64,000 bases of DNA from Flavobacterium sp. ASV13 (lineage in GTDB: Bacteria; Bacteroidota; Bacteroidia; Flavobacteriales; Flavobacteriaceae): assembly GCF_000745775.1 (NCBI RefSeq), contig NZ_JQJY01000002.1:744001-808000 (forward strand), given 5' to 3'. Position numbers and translations under genes: made by a program. Below are positions 25,617 through 46,094 of the stretch, in pieces; position 1 is the first letter of the stretch, and every line of letters begins with the position of its first letter. A model generated the notes under the pieces. It searched no databases. It was not told where the DNA came from and saw only the letters and a program-made list of their open reading frames with translations.

Positions 25617-27740
25617 TTACAAAACCATCGTTAACTGAATTCTCTTTCTATCCTCATCAACTTCAGTAACCTTCACGTCAACATGCTGATGTAATTTCAC
25701 CACTTCGTTTACATCACTCACAAATCCGGCTTTTAACTGAGAAATGTGAACCAAACCACTTTCTTTGATTCCAATGTCAACAAAACAACCGAAGTTGGTG
25801 ATGTTATTAACAATTCCTGGTAAAATCATTCCGATTTTTACATCTTTAATCGATTTTACGTTTGCATCAAATTCAAAAACCTTAGCCGACTTTCTTGGGT
25901 CTAATCCAGGCTTTTCAAGCTCTTTAATGATGTCTTTTAATGTTAGTAAACCAATTTCAGGTGTAATATACTTTTCAGGCTTAATAAGCGCAGTTTTCTC
26001 TTTGTTTGCAATTAAGTCGTTTAGAGAAATGTTCAAATCTTTCGCCATCTTTTCAACAACCGGATAAGCTTCTGGATGCACTGCCGAATTATCCAACGGA
26101 TTTTTAGCATTTGTAATTCTGATAAACGCTGCGCCTTGCTGATAGGCTTTATCGCCCAAACGCGGTACTTTTTTTAACTGTTTTCTGTCTTCGAAAGGTC
26201 CGTTTTCAGAACGGTATTGTACAATATTTTCAGCAAGCTTCTCTCCTATTCCACTCACATAACTTAGTAAATGTTTACTTGCGGTGTTGATATTAATTCC
26301 AACCGAGTTTACGCAGCGAATTACAGTACTGTCAAGTTCTTCTTTTAGTTTCGTTTGATCAACATCATGTTGATATTGTCCAACTCCAATGGCTTTTGGA
26401 TCAATTTTTACCAATTCGGCCAAAGGATCTGAAAGTCGTCTTCCAATAGAAACCGAACCACGAACCGTTACATCATAATTAGGAAATTCTTCTCTAGCGA
26501 TTTTTGAAGCCGAATAAACCGAAGCTCCAGCTTCAGAAACAATAAAAACCTGAATCGGTTTGTCGAATGCGATTTTCTTAATGAAAAATTCCGTTTCTCT
26601 TGAAGCTGTTCCGTTTCCAATAGAAATAGCATCAATTTGATACGCATTTACCATTGAACGGATTTTCTTGATCGCCATTGATTCCTCATTTTGAGGCGCG
26701 TGTGGATAAATAGTTTCATTGTATAATAAATCGCCTTTTTCATCCAAACAAACTACTTTACAACCGCTTCTAAATCCTGGATCGATTGCCAAAATTCGTT
26801 TTTCTCCCAAAGGCGGAGCCAATAATAACTGTCCTAAATTGTTTGCAAAAACTTGGATTGAATTAGCATCAGCTTTTGCTTTTGCTTCCTGCAAAGTTTC
26901 ATTTCCAATTGCCGGATTCAATAAACGTTTATAACTATCCTCAATCGCTAATTGCAAATGAGCTGTTGTATTATTTTGTTTTTTTATGATGATTTCATCA
27001 ATAACATCGTAAGCGTCATCGATATCAACATCGATTTTCATTTTGATAAAACCTTCATTTTCTGCACGAAGCATGGCCAATAAACGGTGCGCTGGCGCTT
27101 TTGTCAACGATTCTTCCCAATCAAAATACTGACTGAATTTTTGGGCTCCTTCTTCTTCGGCTTTCTTTTTAACAACTTTTGTCGCAATAGTTGCTTTTCG
27201 CTGATATAATCTACGAAGCTGTTTACGAACATAAATGTTTTCGTTAATCCATTCCGCTACAATATCTCTTGCACCCTGAATTGCCGCTTCTTCATTAATT
27301 ACATTTTCATTAATGTATTGTGTAGAAAGGAAATCAATATCAACATCACTTTCTGAGATAATCAATTTTGCTAAAGGTTCTAAACCAAATTCGCGCGCAA
27401 CATCGGCTTTTGTTTTTTTCTTCTTTTTGTATGGAAGGTAGAAATCTTCTATTTCCTGTAAATCAAAACTATCTTCAATTTTTTTCTTCAATTCTGCTGT
27501 AAGTGCTTTTTGTTCCTCAATAGATTTAAGAACGGCTTCTTTACGCTTTACAAGTGTATCATAATCCTTTTGCAATTTTGCAATCAGCTCAATTACAGTT
27601 TCATCAAGATTTCCAGTTGAGTCTTTTCGGTAACGCGAAATAAACGGAATCGTACAATCTTCTTCTAATAATTTTACTGTGTTTTGAATACTTACTGCCG
27701 GCGCCTGAACAGACTTGGCAATGAATTGAATATTAGTCAT
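25617..27740 (-). CDS. tex: Tex-family transcription accessory protein
   Basis: This is a 707-residue nucleic-acid-binding protein of the Tex family. The order is an N-terminal helical region, a YqgF-like RNase H fold (LAIDPGFRSGCKVVCLD near residues 320-338), helix-hairpin-helix repeats (NTASKHLLSYVSGIGEKLAENI near 495), and a C-terminal S1 RNA-binding domain (VKIGMILPGIVNNITNFGCF near 633). Tex is linked to transcription and toxin-gene expression in several bacteria, but its exact task is unclear. Length and order are complete. Confidence 0.94.
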   Translation of the reverse strand: MTNIQFIAKSVQAPAVSIQNTVKLLEEDCTIPFISRYRKDSTGNLDETVIELIAKLQKDYDTLVKRKEAVLKSIEEQKALTAELKKKIEDSFDLQEIEDFYLPYKKKKKTKADVAREFGLEPLAKLIISESDVDIDFLSTQYINENVINEEAAIQGARDIVAEWINENIYVRKQLRRLYQRKATIATKVVKKKAEEEGAQKFSQYFDWEESLTKAPAHRLLAMLRAENEGFIKMKIDVDIDDAYDVIDEIIIKKQNNTTAHLQLAIEDSYKRLLNPAIGNETLQEAKAKADANSIQVFANNLGQLLLAPPLGEKRILAIDPGFRSGCKVVCLDEKGDLLYNETIYPHAPQNEESMAIKKIRSMVNAYQIDAISIGNGTASRETEFFIKKIAFDKPIQVFIVSEAGASVYSASKIAREEFPNYDVTVRGSVSIGRRLSDPLAELVKIDPKAIGVGQYQHDVDQTKLKEELDSTVIRCVNSVGININTASKHLLSYVSGIGEKLAENIVQYRSENGPFEDRKQLKKVPRLGDKAYQQGAAFIRITNAKNPLDNSAVHPEAYPVVEKMAKDLNISLNDLIANKEKTALIKPEKYITPEIGLLTLKDIIKELEKPGLDPRKSAKVFEFDANVKSIKDVKIGMILPGIVNNITNFGCFVDIGIKESGLVHISQLKAGFVSDVNEVVKLHQHVDVKVTEVDEDRKRIQLTMVL

Positions 27741-28126: not shown

Positions 28127-28196
28127 ATATTAACATTGTTAATAACCTTAAAACTTAATATTTAATTAACTTAAAATCAATTATTTATAATAAAAA

Positions 28197-28224
28197 ACCG
28201 GGCGGATTTAAAAATCCGCCCGGT
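28197..28224 (-). terminator. Terminator of rpiB
   Basis: ACCGGGCGGATTT and AAATCCGCCCGGT form a GC-rich perfect stem. On the minus strand the stem is followed by TTTTTT, downstream of rpiB. Confidence 0.85.
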
Positions 28225-28239
28225 GTATATTTATCTATT

Positions 28240-28264
28240 GGTGCGAAGCACCGAATTTTTTTTT
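28240..28264 (+). terminator. Terminator-like hairpin after the DUF1294 gene
   Basis: GGTGC-GAA-GCACC is followed by GA and nine T's. It is oriented to end plus-strand transcripts. Confidence 0.65.
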
Positions 28265-28270
28265 GACTTA

Positions 28271-28702
28271 TTATGCACAAGCGATTTTATTCACTCTATT
28301 TTGATGTCTTCCACCTTCAAAAGCTGTATCAAGGAAAGTTTCAACGATTTCAACAGCCTGATGAATAGAAGTAAAACGCGCTGGAATACTCACAATATTT
28401 GCATCGTTGTGTAAACGTGTTAAATAAGCGATTTCTTTAGTCCAACATAAGCCAGCTCTTACTTTCGGGTGTTTATTAACAGTCATTGCAATTCCATTTC
28501 CGCTTCCGCAGATTACGATTCCAAAATCAGCTTTTCCTTCAGACACATCATTTGCAACCGGATGCCCAAAATCTGGATAATCTACAGAAGCATCAGTATC
28601 TGTACCATAATTAGTTACTTCATATCCTCTAGCTTTCAGCATTTCAACTATTGCTTTTTTATATTCTGGACCTGCGTGATCGTTTCCTATTGAAATTTTC
28701 AT
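28271..28702 (-). CDS. rpiB: Ribose-5-phosphate isomerase B
   Basis: This 143-residue enzyme interconverts ribose-5-P and ribulose-5-P in the pentose phosphate pathway. It shows SIGNDHAGPEYK at the N-terminus with the active Asp/His, CGSGNGIAMTVNKHP with the active Cys, and HNDANIVSIPAR. The length and motifs fit the RpiB/LacAB family. It begins at ATG 28702, 28 bp after a -7 box. Confidence 0.95.
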   Translation of the reverse strand: MKISIGNDHAGPEYKKAIVEMLKARGYEVTNYGTDTDASVDYPDFGHPVANDVSEGKADFGIVICGSGNGIAMTVNKHPKVRAGLCWTKEIAYLTRLHNDANIVSIPARFTSIHQAVEIVETFLDTAFEGGRHQNRVNKIACA

Positions 28703-28729
28703 TTTTCTATACTATTTAGTTGTGTCTTG

Positions 28730-28737
28730 CAAATTTA
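28730..28737 (-). promoter_or_regulatory. -7 promoter element for rpiB
   Basis: TAAATTTG on the minus strand matches TAnnTTTG and lies 28 bp before the ATG at 28702. Confidence 0.45.
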
Positions 28738-28753
28738 CTTAATTAATAAATGG

Positions 28754-28851
28754 TTGCCACGAATTGCACCAATTTTCACAAATTTTTTTCTTTTTAAATA
28801 CTTTATAAACATTACATATAAATTCGTGTACATTCTTGCAATTCGTGGCAA
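28754..28851. repeat. 98-bp inverted-repeat element
   Basis: TTGCCACGAATTGCA (28754-28768) and its exact complement TGCAATTCGTGGCAA (28837-28851) bracket an AT-rich centre that contains another AATTCGTG copy. This looks like a small dispersed hairpin repeat. Confidence 0.75.
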
Positions 28852-29504
28852 AACACTTTATTTTACAACTATCTTACTTTCAAAACCTTATCAGTTATTA
28901 ACAATTTTGATAACTCTATAACTATCTCACAATCAATGAAAAATAAACATAATATTTGTTAAAATTTTGAGGTGTTAATAGGACTTTGTAATTGCTTGAT
29001 ATTCAATTAACTTTAAGTTAACAGAAAATGTTAATAAGTTCGAAAAGAAAATTAGAAGTTTTTTTTGGTTGTGTCGAAAAAAAACCTAATCCAAAACCGG
29101 AATGAAATATGCAAGAAAAGTTTCATGAATTTTTGGAAAAGTTATCAATATCAAAAATGACATTTTCAACAGAAATCAACATATCAACTTATCTACAAAA
29201 TGAATTCATTTTTGGTTGTCAACCGTTGTTAATTAAAATACAAAAAGTCTTATAAATTAATCATTTAACTAAATATAACTATGTTGATAACTCAATATAA
29301 CTAAGAGAAACTTCATTTCAATACTTTTAAAAATAAATTTATTCGACATATTAACAAGCTATAATAACCATAAATTTTTTTTAAATTTTTAAAAATCTTT
29401 TTTGTTGTATTTAATATATGTTGAAAACTAAAAAAGTTGAAAAGGAAAAAAAATTTTTTTTGAATTGAATTTTACCTTGATTTGAGTTTGTTTTGAATTT
29501 TGTT

Positions 29505-29738
29505 TCAGACGATTTTTAGAGGATTGTTGAGATTGTCCAGAATTTCCTGAACTTGTTCGAAATCGTCCGGATGAACTTTCAGGCGAATGCCTCCCAGCGC
29601 TGCAGAATACATTGGCGCGACTGAAAGTGTCATTTCGTTTTCAAAGAAATACGGAATTTCTTCCTGTTCAAGTAAGTGTTTCAGAACCACAGTTTCGTGC
29701 TGATAATTGAATATGGCGATGGTTTTAAAGCTTTCCAT
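29505..29738 (-). CDS. DUF2007 family protein
   Basis: This is a 77-residue protein of the DUF2007 group, small cytoplasmic proteins sometimes annotated as putative signal-transducing. The ferredoxin-like pattern ALLEQEEIPYFFENEM... with a glycine-rich middle (SAALGGIRLKV) and C-terminal VQEILDNL helix fits. There is no catalytic motif. It lies at the edge of the gene-free region and is divergent from rnr. Confidence 0.85.
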   Translation of the reverse strand: MESFKTIAIFNYQHETVVLKHLLEQEEIPYFFENEMTLSVAPMYSAALGGIRLKVHPDDFEQVQEILDNLNNPLKIV

Positions 29739-29847: not shown

Positions 29848-32028
29848 ATGAGTAAGAAAATTAGAAAGCCGATAAAAAAAGAGAAAGATTTCTCTAGTAA
29901 GATAGTAAAAATTTTATCGCAAAGTGCTAATAAACCATTCAATTATAAACAAATAGCTGCAAAGCTTGAACTTGATGATACAAATAGCAGAAATCAGATT
30001 ATTAAAGATTTGAAAATTCTTGCAGCTCAAAAGAAGATTATTGAAACTGAACCTGGAAAGTATTTGATCAAAGCAATTAGTCAGGATTATTACGAAGGAA
30101 CGATAGATATGACGAGCAGAAAAACGGCGTATTTTATTTGTCCCGACTTTGCAGAAGATGTTTTTATTCCGACAAATAATTTGAATCGAGCATTAGATAA
30201 AGACAAAGTAAAAGTTTACGTTTATAACCGAAGAAAAGGAAAAAGACCTGAAGGTGAAGTAATTGAAGTTATAGAAAGAGATAAAACAGAGTTTGTTGGA
30301 GTTATTGATATTCAGGCAAATTTTGCTTTTGTTTCGACTGCAAATCCTAAAATGTATACCGATATTTTTATTCCAAAGGATAAAATGGGTGAAGCAGAAA
30401 ACGGAGATGTTGTTTTAGTTAAGATTGAAGATTGGCCAAAAAGAGCGGATAGTCCGTTTGGATCTGTAATCAGAGTTTTAGGAAAACCAGGAGAACACAA
30501 TACAGAAATTCATGCTATTTTAGCCGAGTATGGTTTACCGGCAGATTTTCCAGTAGAAGTAGAGGTTTTTGCACAAAAAATAGATACTTCGATTCAGGAA
30601 TCTGAGATTGCAAAACGTCGTGATATGCGTGATACGCTTACATTTACGATTGATCCAAAAGATGCAAAAGATTTTGATGATGCCTTGTCTTTCAAAAAGT
30701 TAGAAAACGGAAACTTCGAAATAGGAATTCATATTGCTGATGTTTCGTATTATTTGGAAGAAGGAACAATCTTAGATGATGAAGCCTATCAAAGAGCAAC
30801 TTCAGTTTATTTGGTTGATAGAGTGGTGCCAATGCTTCCGGAAGTTTTGTCTAATTTTGCGTGTTCGCTTCGTCCGAATGAAGAGAAATATACATTCTCT
30901 GCAGTATTTGAAGTTTCGCCAACTTCGCAAGTTATTAACCAATGGTTTGGAAGAACAGTAATTTATTCCGATCAGCGTTTTGCTTACGAAGAAGCACAAT
31001 ATATCATTGAAACAAAAGACAATACAATTCCGGTTGATATTTCAATTACCGGAGAATCGTATGTTGTTTCAGATGAAATTGTGGAAGCTACTTTAAAATT
31101 AGATGAATTAGCTAAAATTTTAAGAAAGAAAAGAATGCAGAATGGTGCTATTTCTTTTGATAAAGTAGAAGTGAAATTCAATTTAGATGCTGAAGGAGAA
31201 CCAGAAGGAGTGTATTTCAAAATTTCAAAAGATGCCAATCATTTGATTGAAGAATTCATGCTTTTGGCCAACAGAAAAGTGGCAGAATACATTGGTAAAC
31301 AAAAGAAAACATTTGTTTACCGTATTCATGATGAACCAAATGAAGATAAATTAATTGCAATGGCAACAGTAATTGCTAAATTTGGTTATAAAATAGATTT
31401 CAGAAATAAAGGCGATATTTCAAAATCATTGAATGCCTTGATGGAAGAAGTAAATGGAAAAAAAGAGCAAAATTTAATTGATACTCTTGCGATTAGAAGT
31501 ATGAGTAAAGCCAAATATTCGACAGAAAATATTGGTCATTATGGTTTAGCTTTTGATTATTATAGTCATTTTACATCGCCAATTCGTCGTTATCCAGACG
31601 TTATGGTACACAGATTGCTGCAATATTATCTGGATGGAGGAGCTTCTGTAGATGAAGAAACGTACGAAACAAAATGTCTGCATTGTTCAAATATGGAAAG
31701 TTTAGCGACTAATGCTGAACGTGACAGTATCAAATACATGCAGGTTAAATACATGCAGGATCATCAGGATGAAGAATTCTTGGGAGTTATTTCTGGTGTT
31801 ACAGAATGGGGAATTTATGTTGAAATCGTTTCGAATAAATGCGAAGGAATGGTAAGAATCAGAGAAATAAAAGATGATTACTATACTTTCGATGAAAAAC
31901 AATATGCATTGGTTGGAGCAACTTCAAACAGCATTTTGCAATTGGGAGACGAAATTTATGTTAAAGTAAAAAATGCTGATTTAGTTAAAAAACAACTTGA
32001 TTTTCATTTTTTACGAAGAGCCGAATAA
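29848..32028 (+). CDS. rnr: Ribonuclease R
   Basis: This 726-residue 3'-5' exoribonuclease degrades structured RNA in the cytoplasm. An N-terminal winged-helix region (about residues 14-75) is followed by cold-shock domains, the RNB catalytic domain with DPKDAKDFDDALS (the four metal-binding acidic residues) near 270 and HFTSPIRRYPDVMVHR near 572, and a C-terminal S1 domain with FLGVISGVTEWGIYVEI. The length is normal and all catalytic Asp residues are present. It starts a three-gene plus-strand run. Confidence 0.96.
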   Translation: MSKKIRKPIKKEKDFSSKIVKILSQSANKPFNYKQIAAKLELDDTNSRNQIIKDLKILAAQKKIIETEPGKYLIKAISQDYYEGTIDMTSRKTAYFICPDFAEDVFIPTNNLNRALDKDKVKVYVYNRRKGKRPEGEVIEVIERDKTEFVGVIDIQANFAFVSTANPKMYTDIFIPKDKMGEAENGDVVLVKIEDWPKRADSPFGSVIRVLGKPGEHNTEIHAILAEYGLPADFPVEVEVFAQKIDTSIQESEIAKRRDMRDTLTFTIDPKDAKDFDDALSFKKLENGNFEIGIHIADVSYYLEEGTILDDEAYQRATSVYLVDRVVPMLPEVLSNFACSLRPNEEKYTFSAVFEVSPTSQVINQWFGRTVIYSDQRFAYEEAQYIIETKDNTIPVDISITGESYVVSDEIVEATLKLDELAKILRKKRMQNGAISFDKVEVKFNLDAEGEPEGVYFKISKDANHLIEEFMLLANRKVAEYIGKQKKTFVYRIHDEPNEDKLIAMATVIAKFGYKIDFRNKGDISKSLNALMEEVNGKKEQNLIDTLAIRSMSKAKYSTENIGHYGLAFDYYSHFTSPIRRYPDVMVHRLLQYYLDGGASVDEETYETKCLHCSNMESLATNAERDSIKYMQVKYMQDHQDEEFLGVISGVTEWGIYVEIVSNKCEGMVRIREIKDDYYTFDEKQYALVGATSNSILQLGDEIYVKVKNADLVKKQLDFHFLRRAE

Positions 32029-41945: not shown

Positions 41946-44900
41946 TTGAAAACATCATCTGCAATATATCAGAAGTTAGAAGGATTTATAAAGAAATATT
42001 ACATGAATGAATTGATAAAAGGAGGGCTTCTTTTTATTGGTTTCGGACTTTTGTATTTTCTTTTTACACTTTTCATTGAGTATTTTCTTTGGCTAAAACC
42101 ATTAGGAAGAACACTTTTATTCTGGATATTTATTGGAGTAGAAGTTTTTCTGTTGTTTCGATTTATCTTATTTCCAATTTTCAAGTTGTTCAAACTTCAA
42201 AAAGGAATCGATTATAATCAGGCTTCGGCTATTATTGGAAATCATTTTACAGAAGTAAGTGATAAACTAACGAACTTTTTACAGCTTTCTTCAAACGAAA
42301 ATTCAGCAGAAAGTTCAGAATTAATGTTGGCTTCAATTGAACAAAAGGCAAATTCATTGCAACCAATTCCGTTTGGAAATGCCATCAATTATAAATCAAA
42401 TAAAAAGTATTTGCCATTAGCTTTAATTCCGGTTTTATTGTTTGCAGTCTTTTTTGTTTCTGGAAACAGCAATATCATTTCTCAAAGTTTTAATAGAGTA
42501 GTGCATTTTAATGCTTCGTTTTTACCACCGGCACCTTTCAAATTTGTGGTTTTAAATGACAATTTACAGACAGAACAAAACAAAGATTTTATTGTAAAAG
42601 TTGAAACTGAAGGAAAGGTTGTTCCAGAAAATGTGATGATCCATATTGGTAACGAAAGTTATTTTATGGAATCTTCTCAAACAGGAAAGTTCGAATTCAA
42701 GATTGAAAAACCAACTTCAGATGTTCAGTTTTCTTTAGAAGGAAATTCAGTTTCATCAAATGAATATGAATTAAAAGTTATTACAGTTCCATCAATTGCC
42801 AACTTCGAAATGGTTTTGAATTTTCCTTCTTATCTAAAAAAGAAATCAGAAACCATTCAGGGAACTGGAAATGCAATCGTTCCTGAAGGTACATCTGTAA
42901 CATGGAAAATGTCTACAAAGTCAACTCAGGAAATTGTTTGGAAAGATGAGAACTCAGCATCTAAATTTAATAAAATAGAAGATGAATTTAAGTTATCAAA
43001 AAGCATTAATCAAAATACAGAATATCAAATTTTAACTTCAAACAATAAAGTTAAGAACTACGAAAAATTAGATTATCAGCTTTCGGTTATCAAAGATCAG
43101 CATCCAACAATTTCAGTTTCGCCTGCTCCGGATAGTTTGAAATTAGATAAGAATTATGTTCTTGGAAGGTTAGGAGATGACTACGGTTTGTCAAAATTAC
43201 AAGTTGTTTATTATGAAAAAAACAAACTACAAACTGCAAAGCGCGGAACCATTCCTGTTAAGCAAGCAGTATTCGACCAGTTTGTTTTTAACTTTCCGAG
43301 TAATCTTCCAGTAGAAGAAGGAGTATCTTATGAATACTATTTTGAGGTTTTTGATAATGATGCACCACACGGATTTAAGAGTACAAAGTCTTCTACATTT
43401 TCAGATCGTGTTGCGACAACAGATGAAATTCATGATGCAGAATTGCAACAACAAAATGCGAATATTAATAGTTTGTCGAAGTCATTAAAGAATCAGGAAA
43501 AGCAATTTTCTGAAATGGATAAACTGAAAAATACCGGAAAAGAAAAAGATAATTTAGAATTTAAAGACCAGCAAAAAGTAAATGATTTTATCAAACGTCA
43601 GAAACAACAAGACGAATTGATGAAACAGTTTACTGAAAAGATGAATAAGAATTTAGATAAATACAGCGCTGAGAAAAAAGATAAAACTGCCGAAGATTTA
43701 CAAAAGCGTTTAGACAATGCCGAGAAAGATTTAGAAAAGAATCAGAAGTTACTAGACGAATTAAAGAATTTAAATGATAAATTAAACAGCGATGAGTTGT
43801 TTGATAAGATGGAAAAATTCAAACAAATCAGTAAAAACCAATCTCGTAATTTAGAACAATTAGTTGAATTAACGAAACGTTTTTATGTAGAAAAGAAAGC
43901 AGGACAAGTTGCTGAAAAATTAAATAAACTGTCAGAACAACAAGAACAGTTATCAGATAAAGACAAAGAAAATACAAAAGAGAAGCAAGACGAAATCAAT
44001 AAAACATTTGATAAAATTCAGGAAGATCTTAAAGATTTGAAAGAGGAAAACAATACTTTAAAATCTCCTTTAGATATTCCGAAAGATGCTTCAAAAGAAA
44101 AAGATGTAGAGAACGATTTGAATAAAGCTTCTGAAGAATTGAGTAAAAAGAATACTTCTTCGGCTAAGCCAAAACAGAAAAGTGCTTCTAAGAAAATGAA
44201 GAGCATGGCACAACAAATGGAATCTAATATGGAAGCCGGCGACCAGGAACAATTGGAAGAAGATGTTGCAATGCTTCGTCAAATTTTGGATAACCTTTTA
44301 GCTTTTTCATTGTCTCAAGAAGATGTTATGAAACAATTTAAATCGATGAAATTAGGTTCTTCTGCTTATACGAAGAACATAAAAATTCAGCAGAATTTAA
44401 AACAACAGTTCCGTCATGTCGATGATAGTTTGTTTGCAATGTCTCTTAGAAATCCAAAAATTGCAGAAGATGTAACCAAGGAAATTGGAAACGTACAATA
44501 TAATATGGATAAAGCAATCGAAGTTTTAACCGATGTTCAAATCCCAAAAGGAGTATCACATCAGCAATATGCAGTTTCATCAGCAAATAAATTAGCAGAC
44601 TTTCTAAGTGATCTTTTAAATAATATGCAAATGTCAATGGCTAATCCTGGAGCTGGAAAACCAAAACCAGGTGACGGACAAGGAATGCAATTACCAGATA
44701 TTATCCAAAAACAAAAAGGTCTGGCTGATAAAATGAAGGAGGGAATGAAGCCTGGTGATAAGCAAGGAAGTGGCCAACAAGGAAAAAGTGGAGAGAGCAA
44801 ACCAAGTCAAGATGGTCAGCAAGGGAAAGATGGAAATGGAAAAGATGGAAAGAATGGACAGGGTAAAAATGGTCAAGGTGGAAAAGAAGGAGGAAAAGGA

Positions 44901-45338
44901 AAAGACGGAAATGAAGGTGAAGATGGAGAAGGCGATGCTGAAAAAATAATGGAGATATATAAAGAGCAAGTCAAACTACGTGAAGCATTGCAAAATGAAT
45001 TAGCTAAAAAAGGTTTAGACGCACAAGGAAGATCTGCAATCGAACAAATGAAAGCTTCAGAAAAACAGATTTTAAATAAAGGTTTTAAGAATGAGAACCT
45101 TCAAAGAATTTTAAATATTCAACAAGAATTGCTAAAATTAAACAATGCAGTTCAGCAACAAGGTCAAGATACGAAGCGTCAATCTGAAACAAATAAGACA
45201 GAATTTCCTAATCGTTCAAATGCTTTACCAAGCTCATTAACTGATTATTTAAATAGTGTAGAAATTTTAAATAGACAATCGCTACCTTTGCGCTCGAATT
45301 TTAATCAAAAGGTTCAAGAATATTTTAATACAAAATGA
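41946..45338 (+). CDS. DUF4175 family protein
   Basis: This is a 1130-residue protein with N-terminal membrane segments (about residues 20-50 and 55-80, plus one near 155-175) and a large region of beta then coiled-coil sequence (about 500-860). It ends in a Gly/Lys/Gln-rich low-complexity stretch (about 900-1000, collagen-like GxxGKDG patterns). The N-terminus matches DUF4175. Members lie in Bacteroidota genomes near envelope genes and have no assigned function. The start is TTG at 41946. Its stop overlaps the ybeY start (ATGA), so the two are coupled. Confidence 0.85.
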   Translation: MKTSSAIYQKLEGFIKKYYMNELIKGGLLFIGFGLLYFLFTLFIEYFLWLKPLGRTLLFWIFIGVEVFLLFRFILFPIFKLFKLQKGIDYNQASAIIGNHFTEVSDKLTNFLQLSSNENSAESSELMLASIEQKANSLQPIPFGNAINYKSNKKYLPLALIPVLLFAVFFVSGNSNIISQSFNRVVHFNASFLPPAPFKFVVLNDNLQTEQNKDFIVKVETEGKVVPENVMIHIGNESYFMESSQTGKFEFKIEKPTSDVQFSLEGNSVSSNEYELKVITVPSIANFEMVLNFPSYLKKKSETIQGTGNAIVPEGTSVTWKMSTKSTQEIVWKDENSASKFNKIEDEFKLSKSINQNTEYQILTSNNKVKNYEKLDYQLSVIKDQHPTISVSPAPDSLKLDKNYVLGRLGDDYGLSKLQVVYYEKNKLQTAKRGTIPVKQAVFDQFVFNFPSNLPVEEGVSYEYYFEVFDNDAPHGFKSTKSSTFSDRVATTDEIHDAELQQQNANINSLSKSLKNQEKQFSEMDKLKNTGKEKDNLEFKDQQKVNDFIKRQKQQDELMKQFTEKMNKNLDKYSAEKKDKTAEDLQKRLDNAEKDLEKNQKLLDELKNLNDKLNSDELFDKMEKFKQISKNQSRNLEQLVELTKRFYVEKKAGQVAEKLNKLSEQQEQLSDKDKENTKEKQDEINKTFDKIQEDLKDLKEENNTLKSPLDIPKDASKEKDVENDLNKASEELSKKNTSSAKPKQKSASKKMKSMAQQMESNMEAGDQEQLEEDVAMLRQILDNLLAFSLSQEDVMKQFKSMKLGSSAYTKNIKIQQNLKQQFRHVDDSLFAMSLRNPKIAEDVTKEIGNVQYNMDKAIEVLTDVQIPKGVSHQQYAVSSANKLADFLSDLLNNMQMSMANPGAGKPKPGDGQGMQLPDIIQKQKGLADKMKEGMKPGDKQGSGQQGKSGESKPSQDGQQGKDGNGKDGKNGQGKNGQGGKEGGKGKDGNEGEDGEGDAEKIMEIYKEQVKLREALQNELAKKGLDAQGRSAIEQMKASEKQILNKGFKNENLQRILNIQQELLKLNNAVQQQGQDTKRQSETNKTEFPNRSNALPSSLTDYLNSVEILNRQSLPLRSNFNQKVQEYFNTK

Positions 45339-45754
45339 TAAACTTTAATTACGAAACTGAATTTTCTTTAGACAACGAACAAGCTTTTACAGATTGGTTA
45401 AGCGCAGTTATTGTTTCTGAAAAGAAGAATGAGGGAGAAATAAATTATATTTTTTGTGATGATGAATACTTGCATAAAATAAATGTAGAGTATTTAAACC
45501 ACGATACACTAACAGATATTATCAGTTTTGATTATACTGTTGGCAACGAATTGAACGGAGATATTTTTGTTTCTGTAGAAAGAGTAGAAGACAACGCAAA
45601 AGATTTTAATGTTTCTTTTGAAGAAGAATTGAAACGTGTACTTGCTCACGGTATATTACACTACTGCGGATACAAAGACAAAAGTGATGTAGATGCAGAA
45701 ATGATGCGTTCAAAAGAAGATGAAAAGATCGCGATGTTTCACGTGAAACAGTAA
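45335..45754 (+). CDS. ybeY: Endoribonuclease YbeY
   Basis: This 139-residue protein matures 16S rRNA ends and supports ribosome quality control. The zinc motif region is AHGILHYCGYKDKSDVDAEMMRSKEDE. Two of the classic three His ligands are present (HGxLH), but the third (H in GYDH) is Lys/Asp here, as seen in Bacteroidota relatives. The last six codons (MFHVKQ and stop) fall in the first parS-like 16-mer (45735-45750). It overlaps the DUF4175 gene by 4 bp. Confidence 0.94.
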   Translation: MINFNYETEFSLDNEQAFTDWLSAVIVSEKKNEGEINYIFCDDEYLHKINVEYLNHDTLTDIISFDYTVGNELNGDIFVSVERVEDNAKDFNVSFEEELKRVLAHGILHYCGYKDKSDVDAEMMRSKEDEKIAMFHVKQ

Positions 45755-46094
45755 TTAAACATCTAAATAAATAGCGTAACATGTTTCACGTGGAACATGT
45801 TTTTTAAAGAAAAGTATTTTGTGTTCCACGTGAAACGTTTATAATTTTTGAATTTGAATTTTAAGATTTCGTTCCACGTGGAACATGAAAGATGATTTAA
45901 ATTTAATAAGTTGTTTCACGTGGAATACGTGAAGTTTATTTAAAAGGGAAAGATGAAATAAAATGTTTCACGTGAAACATTGAATATTTGATTTTGGAAG
46001 AAGTTGTAAGTGTTCCATGTGGAACTTTTAAGTTTGGTTTTAGAACTTGAAACCTGAAACCTGAAATCAAAATAAAACCGTTCCACGTGGAACA
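45735..46094. other. Array of eight parS-like palindromes
   Basis: Eight 16-bp sites resemble the ParB site TGTTTCACGTGAAACA. They start at 45735 (perfect), 45782, 45822, 45870, 45912, 45964 (perfect), 46011 and 46079. Typical variants are TGTTTCACGTGGAACA and CGTTCCACGTGGAACA. Steps are 47, 40, 48, 42, 52, 47 and 68 bp. The array fills the 403-bp gap between ybeY and mnmG. parS sites normally cluster near oriC and load ParB. Confidence 0.85.
46045..46070. repeat. CCTGAAAC-type repeat within the parS array
   Basis: AACTTGAAACCTGAAACCTG lies between parS-like sites 7 and 8. Similar runs occur before glnS and after mnmG. Confidence 0.5.

Follow-up and report, generated by a model that had tools for sequence, protein, structure and literature searches.

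The window analysed here is a stretch of 64,000 nucleotides of a Flavobacterium genome, corresponding to bases 744001-808000 of contig C2 (834,512 bases) in an assembly of 5.28 Mb in 21 contigs. It contains an 802 bp gap with an AT content of 78%, bounded on the left by rpiB and on the right by a gene for a DUF2007 protein, which is followed by rnr, the gene for RNase R (Table 1); the rnr protein of the window is 100% identical to that of genome G053. The original prediction, which proposed this locus as a chromosome replication origin, had described it as an AT-rich, gene-free stretch situated where the direction of genes switches. Both features were recovered: in a hand-picked set of ORFs from the window 19 of the 25 to the left of the gap are on the minus strand and 21 of the 28 to its right are on the plus strand (earlier counts 20 of 29 and 22 of 29). 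Between rpiB and the conserved core of the gap lies a palindromic repeat-like insert (GCCACGAATT ... AATTCGTGGC; 28756-28849) that is largely represented by gaps in the aligned relatives. A stretch of 330 kb from the same genome has 20 GCCACGAATT half-sites, and 16 of these are arranged as inverted pairs separated by no more than about 100 bp. Weak Rfam matches on the minus strand at window positions 28184-28326 (GibS, 34.4 bits against a cut-off of 115; L20_leader, 20.6 against 58.7) probably represent a hairpin downstream of rpiB. The distance between rpiB and the DUF2007 gene is usually about 0.8 kb, as against 2.4-2.5 kb in three relatives, with the extra DNA on the rpiB-to-core side in G042 and on the core-to-DUF2007 side in G030 and G060.

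Table 1. Features of the rpiB-rnr gap and of related sites, in window coordinates
Feature	Position	Strand	Basis
rpiB (PF02502), left neighbour of the gap	28271-28702	-	Pfam family match
Gene-free gap with the proposed replication origin (position A, rpiB / DUF2007-rnr)	28703-29504		sequence and gene calls
Conserved non-coding core of the proposed origin, used as profile	28970-29432		31-genome alignment; profile search
Box 1, TTATCAATA	29142-29150	+	TTATCAATA in 20/33 aligned rows
Box 2, TTTTCAACA (TTWTYAACA)	29163-29171	+	aligned rows: TTTTCAACA 16/33, TTATCAACA 6/33, TTATTAACA 6/33
Box 3, TTATCTACA (TTATYTACA)	29189-29197	+	27/33 aligned rows
Box 4, TTGTCAACC, plus inverted TTAACAACG at 29224-29232	29216-29224	+	sequence; conserved block
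Candidate unwinding element (AT-only at 29370-29396)	29251-29400		nearest-neighbour stability; function predicted
Box 5, TTATCAACA	29282-29290	-	aligned rows: TTATCAACA 14/33, TTATTAACA 10/33
Highly conserved motif ATTAACANNCTATAATAACC	29350-29369	+	conserved block; part of the public-genome scan pattern
Lowest point of the window's cumulative GC skew	29397-29403		computed over the window
Box 6, TTTTCAACA (TTKTCAACA)	29419-29427	-	aligned rows: TTGTCAACA 16/33, TTTTCAACA 15/33
DUF2007 gene (PF09413), right neighbour of the gap	29505-29738	-	Pfam family match
rnr, RNase R (PF00773), next after the DUF2007 gene	29848-32028	+	Pfam family match
Gap equivalent to position B	41804-41945		gene order
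Eight parS-like 16-mers between ybeY and mnmG/gidA	45735-46094		sequence; gene calls

The gap contains six box-like 9-mers (Table 1), and the three TTWTCAACA words reported earlier (boxes 2, 5 and 6) were found in place together with TTATCTACA (box 3) and TTATCAATA (box 1). For a stretch of this length 0.08 TTWTCAACA copies would be expected from the background in the same genome (34 copies in 330 kb). Among the 33 aligned rows TTATYAACA is kept at position 29282 in 24, and TTKTCAACA at position 29419 in 31. The clustering of these words is beyond chance across the gaps of 31 genomes, with TTATTAACA (57 copies) being enriched 103-fold, TTATCAACA (37 copies) 54-fold, TTGTCAACA (15 copies) 51-fold and TTTTCAACA (35 copies) 24-fold over a background of 1.03 Mb, where the folds ignore kinship among the genomes. 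As had been anticipated, the boxes are near but imperfect matches to the classical DnaA box: the exact E. coli-type box TTATCCACA does not occur in the gap, its sole copy in the window being at 26701, and neither TTATCCACA nor TTTTCCACA is present in the 31 gaps (22.4 kb). The sequence of the DnaA box varies between lineages, so an exact TTATCCACA is not a defining feature of oriC, and judging from the sequences the mismatch looks like a lineage feature, with TTATYAACA replacing TTATCCACA. The AT-only run of the original prediction was also confirmed, and it falls in the 150 bp of the gap with the lowest stability. By computed stability this candidate unwinding element takes third place among the weakest 150-bp stretches in the window, and there is other intergenic DNA that is just as weak.

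Alignment of 31 gaps of 600-900 bp delimited the conserved block, in which many columns reach at least 90% conservation. A profile of this core matches 37 of the 43 regions that we compared around rnr, 31 of these 37 having been used to build it. Model R1, which covers most of the core (29136-29432), gave a single match each in 14 of 16 Flavobacterium genomes, a set that includes the exceptions to the profile search. For other genera of the family, 16 genomes were chosen for their few contigs; 15 of them likewise have one match each, always within about 2.1 kb of rnr. The R1 search returned no match in G027, G034 (60% complete) and G079. In the last of these, a single contig, rnr is located at C1:585-2681; hence the depositors may have set base 1 near the origin, which possibly accounts for the missing match. 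A scan of public genomes with an exact pattern recovered at least 117 stretches. Among the matches listed, 78 of 80 loci have rpiB, DUF2007 or rnr as their nearest homologue from the window, and the genera named in the titles include Flavobacterium, Winogradskyella, Psychroserpens, Gaetbulibacter, Arcticiflavibacter and Lutibacter. Other genera appear in the titles of a few metagenomes, which may be mislabelled.

Conserved non-coding DNA of about 460 bp might also be expected of a non-coding RNA or of a large regulatory element unrelated to replication. We consider this explanation exceedingly improbable, given that the boxes are repeated on both strands and coincide with the minimum of the GC skew. 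An RNA element in particular was rejected: no Rfam family matches the core at gathering score, and its consensus fold amounts to only -2.9 kcal/mol, with two-sided change in 2 of 16 pairs.

A GC-skew minimum elsewhere would have contradicted the original prediction; over the window the cumulative skew reaches its minimum inside the gap (Table 1). For this genome, which is in 21 contigs, the skew was followed over the window and sampled 20-kb stretches of contig C2: to the left of the window 9 of 12 stretches are negative, the 3 positive ones being at 320, 680 and 700 kb, and to the right both sampled stretches are positive. Two relatives assembled as single contigs were sampled with 20 stretches each, the origin-bearing stretch being counted with the left arm. 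In G036, 7 of 10 right-arm stretches are positive and all 10 left-arm stretches are negative; the corresponding counts in G042 are 7 of 9 and 10 of 11. The sign of G036 changes again between 2.57 and 2.80 Mb, with the antipode at about 2.62 Mb and a value of only -0.004 for the stretch at 2.80 Mb; in G042, whose antipode is at about 4.05 Mb, the second switch falls between 3.92 and 4.30 Mb. Hence, over these 40 sampled stretches, both chromosomes display arms of mainly opposite sign and a second switch near the antipode. According to an excerpt of PMC7111523, the complete genome of F. johnsoniae UW101 (NC_009441.1) is among those whose GC skew indicates an assembly error, which matters if that genome is used as a skew reference.

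The regional comparison covered 43 regions around rnr of 20 kb each, except for one of 9.5 kb. The skew minimum lies between rpiB and rnr in 24 of the 42 regions that have rpiB, including that of G058, whose core falls outside the region drawn. In the 37 core-bearing regions the minimum is at most 1 kb from the core in 29 and at most 2.5 kb in 33; it is more than 1 kb away in 8, four of which are 3.7-8.5 kb off. The skew step across the core, computed from 8-kb flanks, has a positive sign in all 36 regions whose flanks are complete (one core-bearing region was too short and was left out), with a median of 0.233. None of 47 control stretches reaches this median, the highest being 0.225.

Gene direction alone can produce GC skew, and it does switch at the gap; accordingly, the gap might be a mere boundary between opposite operons with the true origin elsewhere, for instance at dnaA. 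However, in G036 and G042 the sampled skew is mainly switched over each entire arm and returns near the antipode. Furthermore, the core starts about 270 bp from the start of rpiB and in some species lies away from both rpiB and rnr; for the latter reason it was also rejected as a promoter of either gene. As for dnaA, the skew at this gene in G036 and G042 is near zero (-0.008 and +0.009) and lies within the left arm, and TTWTCAACA is missing from 24 dnaA upstream stretches (23 genomes), which contain two copies of TTATCAATA. They are what is left, after removal of an empty one, of 25 upstream stretches obtained from 33 dnaA loci; one is only 90 bases long, and G051 is counted twice. Taken together, these observations make it very unlikely that the gap is only an operon boundary.

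The genome encodes a single DnaA (C3:737263-737748, E 4.9e-62). An origin at dnaA was rejected, as the gene is on another contig here and lies 0.87-1.26 Mb from rnr (from the core in G022 and G058, in which the core has moved) in all eight complete or near-complete relatives checked. Six of these eight records begin at dnaA, about 1 Mb from the skew-defined origin. A further alternative accepts the origin and has TTATYAACA read by a replication or nucleoid protein other than DnaA. Relative to TTATCCACA the box has a changed sixth base and often a changed fifth, and no TTWTCAACA is present at dnaA, so autoregulation of dnaA lends no support to the box. Nevertheless, the remaining bases of the box agree with the DnaA consensus. 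The DnaA proteins examined contain RDHATVLHA in all 33 rows (31 genomes) and in nine further, partly overlapping rows, whereas E. coli DnaA has a T after the DH; this makes an altered base reading by DnaA itself possible. That the changed residue explains the changed box is a guess, and we regard a reader other than DnaA as improbable, giving it only about a tenth of our belief.

The skew minimum in the gap, the skew of the relatives, the conserved box-rich core and the single model match per genome all support the original prediction, and we conclude with very high confidence that the gap is the chromosomal replication origin (oriC) of this Flavobacterium. It resembles the DnaA-dependent oriC of E. 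coli and B. subtilis in being AT-rich intergenic DNA at the GC-skew minimum, in carrying a cluster of DnaA-box-like 9-mers on both strands beside a stretch of low computed stability, and in sharing its side of the chromosome with parS. It differs from them in using TTATYAACA boxes in place of TTATCCACA and in its neighbours, rpiB and rnr, dnaA not being adjacent. The parS-like array of the original prediction was recovered as eight copies 16.2 kb from the gap, two of which are exactly TGTTTCACGTGAAACA; the only ParB match of the genome is on another contig, C5. In the proposed mechanism DnaA, from a gene that is about 1 Mb away in complete relatives, would bind the approximately six TTATYAACA-type boxes of the 460-bp core, upon which the AT-rich stretch at about 29300-29420 might open. 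The helicase would then be loaded and two forks would leave in opposite directions, with ParB at the parS array near mnmG presumably separating the new origins thereafter.

The core can change its address: it is found next to rpiB/rnr in most of the genomes examined and near gltX/ybeY-mnmG in some Flavobacterium. Seven genomes carry it at this second address (position B), which by the gene order of the window is about 12 kb from the rpiB/rnr address (position A). The equivalent gap of the window (Table 1) contains no core, and the single R1 match in this genome is the one at position A. Adjoining this gap, window ORF 41946-45338 codes a 1130-aa protein whose sole Pfam match is below threshold (DUF4175, 26.1 bits against 27.3). 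Five of the seven genomes have the core adjoining gltX. It lies between gltX and a homologue of window ORF 41946 in G009 and G011, and between gltX and ybeY in G020 and G058, where the homologue of window ORF 41946 was not found; in G041 it is beside gltX, with its other side beyond the contig end. In these five the detected homologues from rnr to gltX are in the order of the window. In G018 and G022 the core is beside ybeY-mnmG, and gltX is elsewhere in G022 and absent from the stretch in G018. The orientation of the core relative to mnmG or rnr is kept in all seven. The core motif also occurs at position B in two named loci, L239 (both flanks) and L275 (F. enshiense; one flank). Words resembling parS (at most 2 mismatches) are present near ybeY-mnmG in 5 of the 7 moved genomes, and in four of these genomes they are about 1-4 kb away from the core.

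Only part of the moved cases show the skew clearly tracking the core, with the minimum at or near it in 3 of 7. The minimum is about 150 bp from the moved core in G058 and 2.3 kb away in G018, and in G041 it falls inside the core, 255-270 bp from the contig end. G009 and G022 show only a sign step at the moved core, with the regional minimum 8 and 25 kb off, respectively. The minimum lies elsewhere in G011 and G020, and these two of the seven moved cases speak against the origin reading.

To trace the history of these moves we relied on trees of rnr (39 of 58 rows used) and of the core, each a single locus next to the origin. In the rnr tree the position B genomes form two groups, namely G018/G020/G022/G041/G058, along with G027, which gave no R1 match, and G009/G011, so that at least two changes are needed. 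A single clade of position B genomes is rejected on this tree (AU p = 0.003, with G027 held with the position B genomes and the question framed after a first tree had been seen). The core tree likewise separates the two groups, and in it the G009/G011 core groups with those of G024 and G033, which are of the position A type (support 0.91), apart from the other position B genomes. That the moved core was passed from one of these groups to the other is therefore not favoured. Together with the retained direction of the core and the ordered intervening genes detected in the five comparable genomes, this leads us to favour, with modest confidence, at least two independent moves of the core between the same two neighbourhoods.

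Parts of this picture are already in print. In Elizabethkingia meningoseptica the passages of PMC8994065 available to us give an oriC predicted by Ori-Finder at 740,720-741,368, far from dnaA at 2,613,273-2,614,727. This is comparable to the gap in its distance from dnaA and differs from it in having three TTATCCACA boxes at no more than one mismatch; those passages name neither a conserved core nor neighbouring genes (PMC8994065). For Flavobacterium columnare a computed DoriC origin has been used to measure the distances of gyr genes; passages from that paper give these distances alone, and the likeness is that of a computed origin in the same genus (PMC8359277). In Cytophaga hutchinsonii, of the same phylum, plasmids are marked oriC in the plasmid table of PMC5288383, a likeness by label alone. 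In the literature searched we found no paper that connects oriC in this group with either rpiB or ribonuclease R.

The order rpiB-core-rnr provides a simple origin signature for a much-sequenced genus, and the box consensus of the lineage should be of use for work on DnaA and for the construction of oriC plasmids. The part most worth following is the changing address of the core. If the independent moves are real, oriC would be relocatable as a separate unit, via transposition or a stage with two origins, and there would be a preferred second site for it next to the centromere, beside parS. These genomes offer a natural experiment in which a bacterial origin changes place and its neighbours stay.
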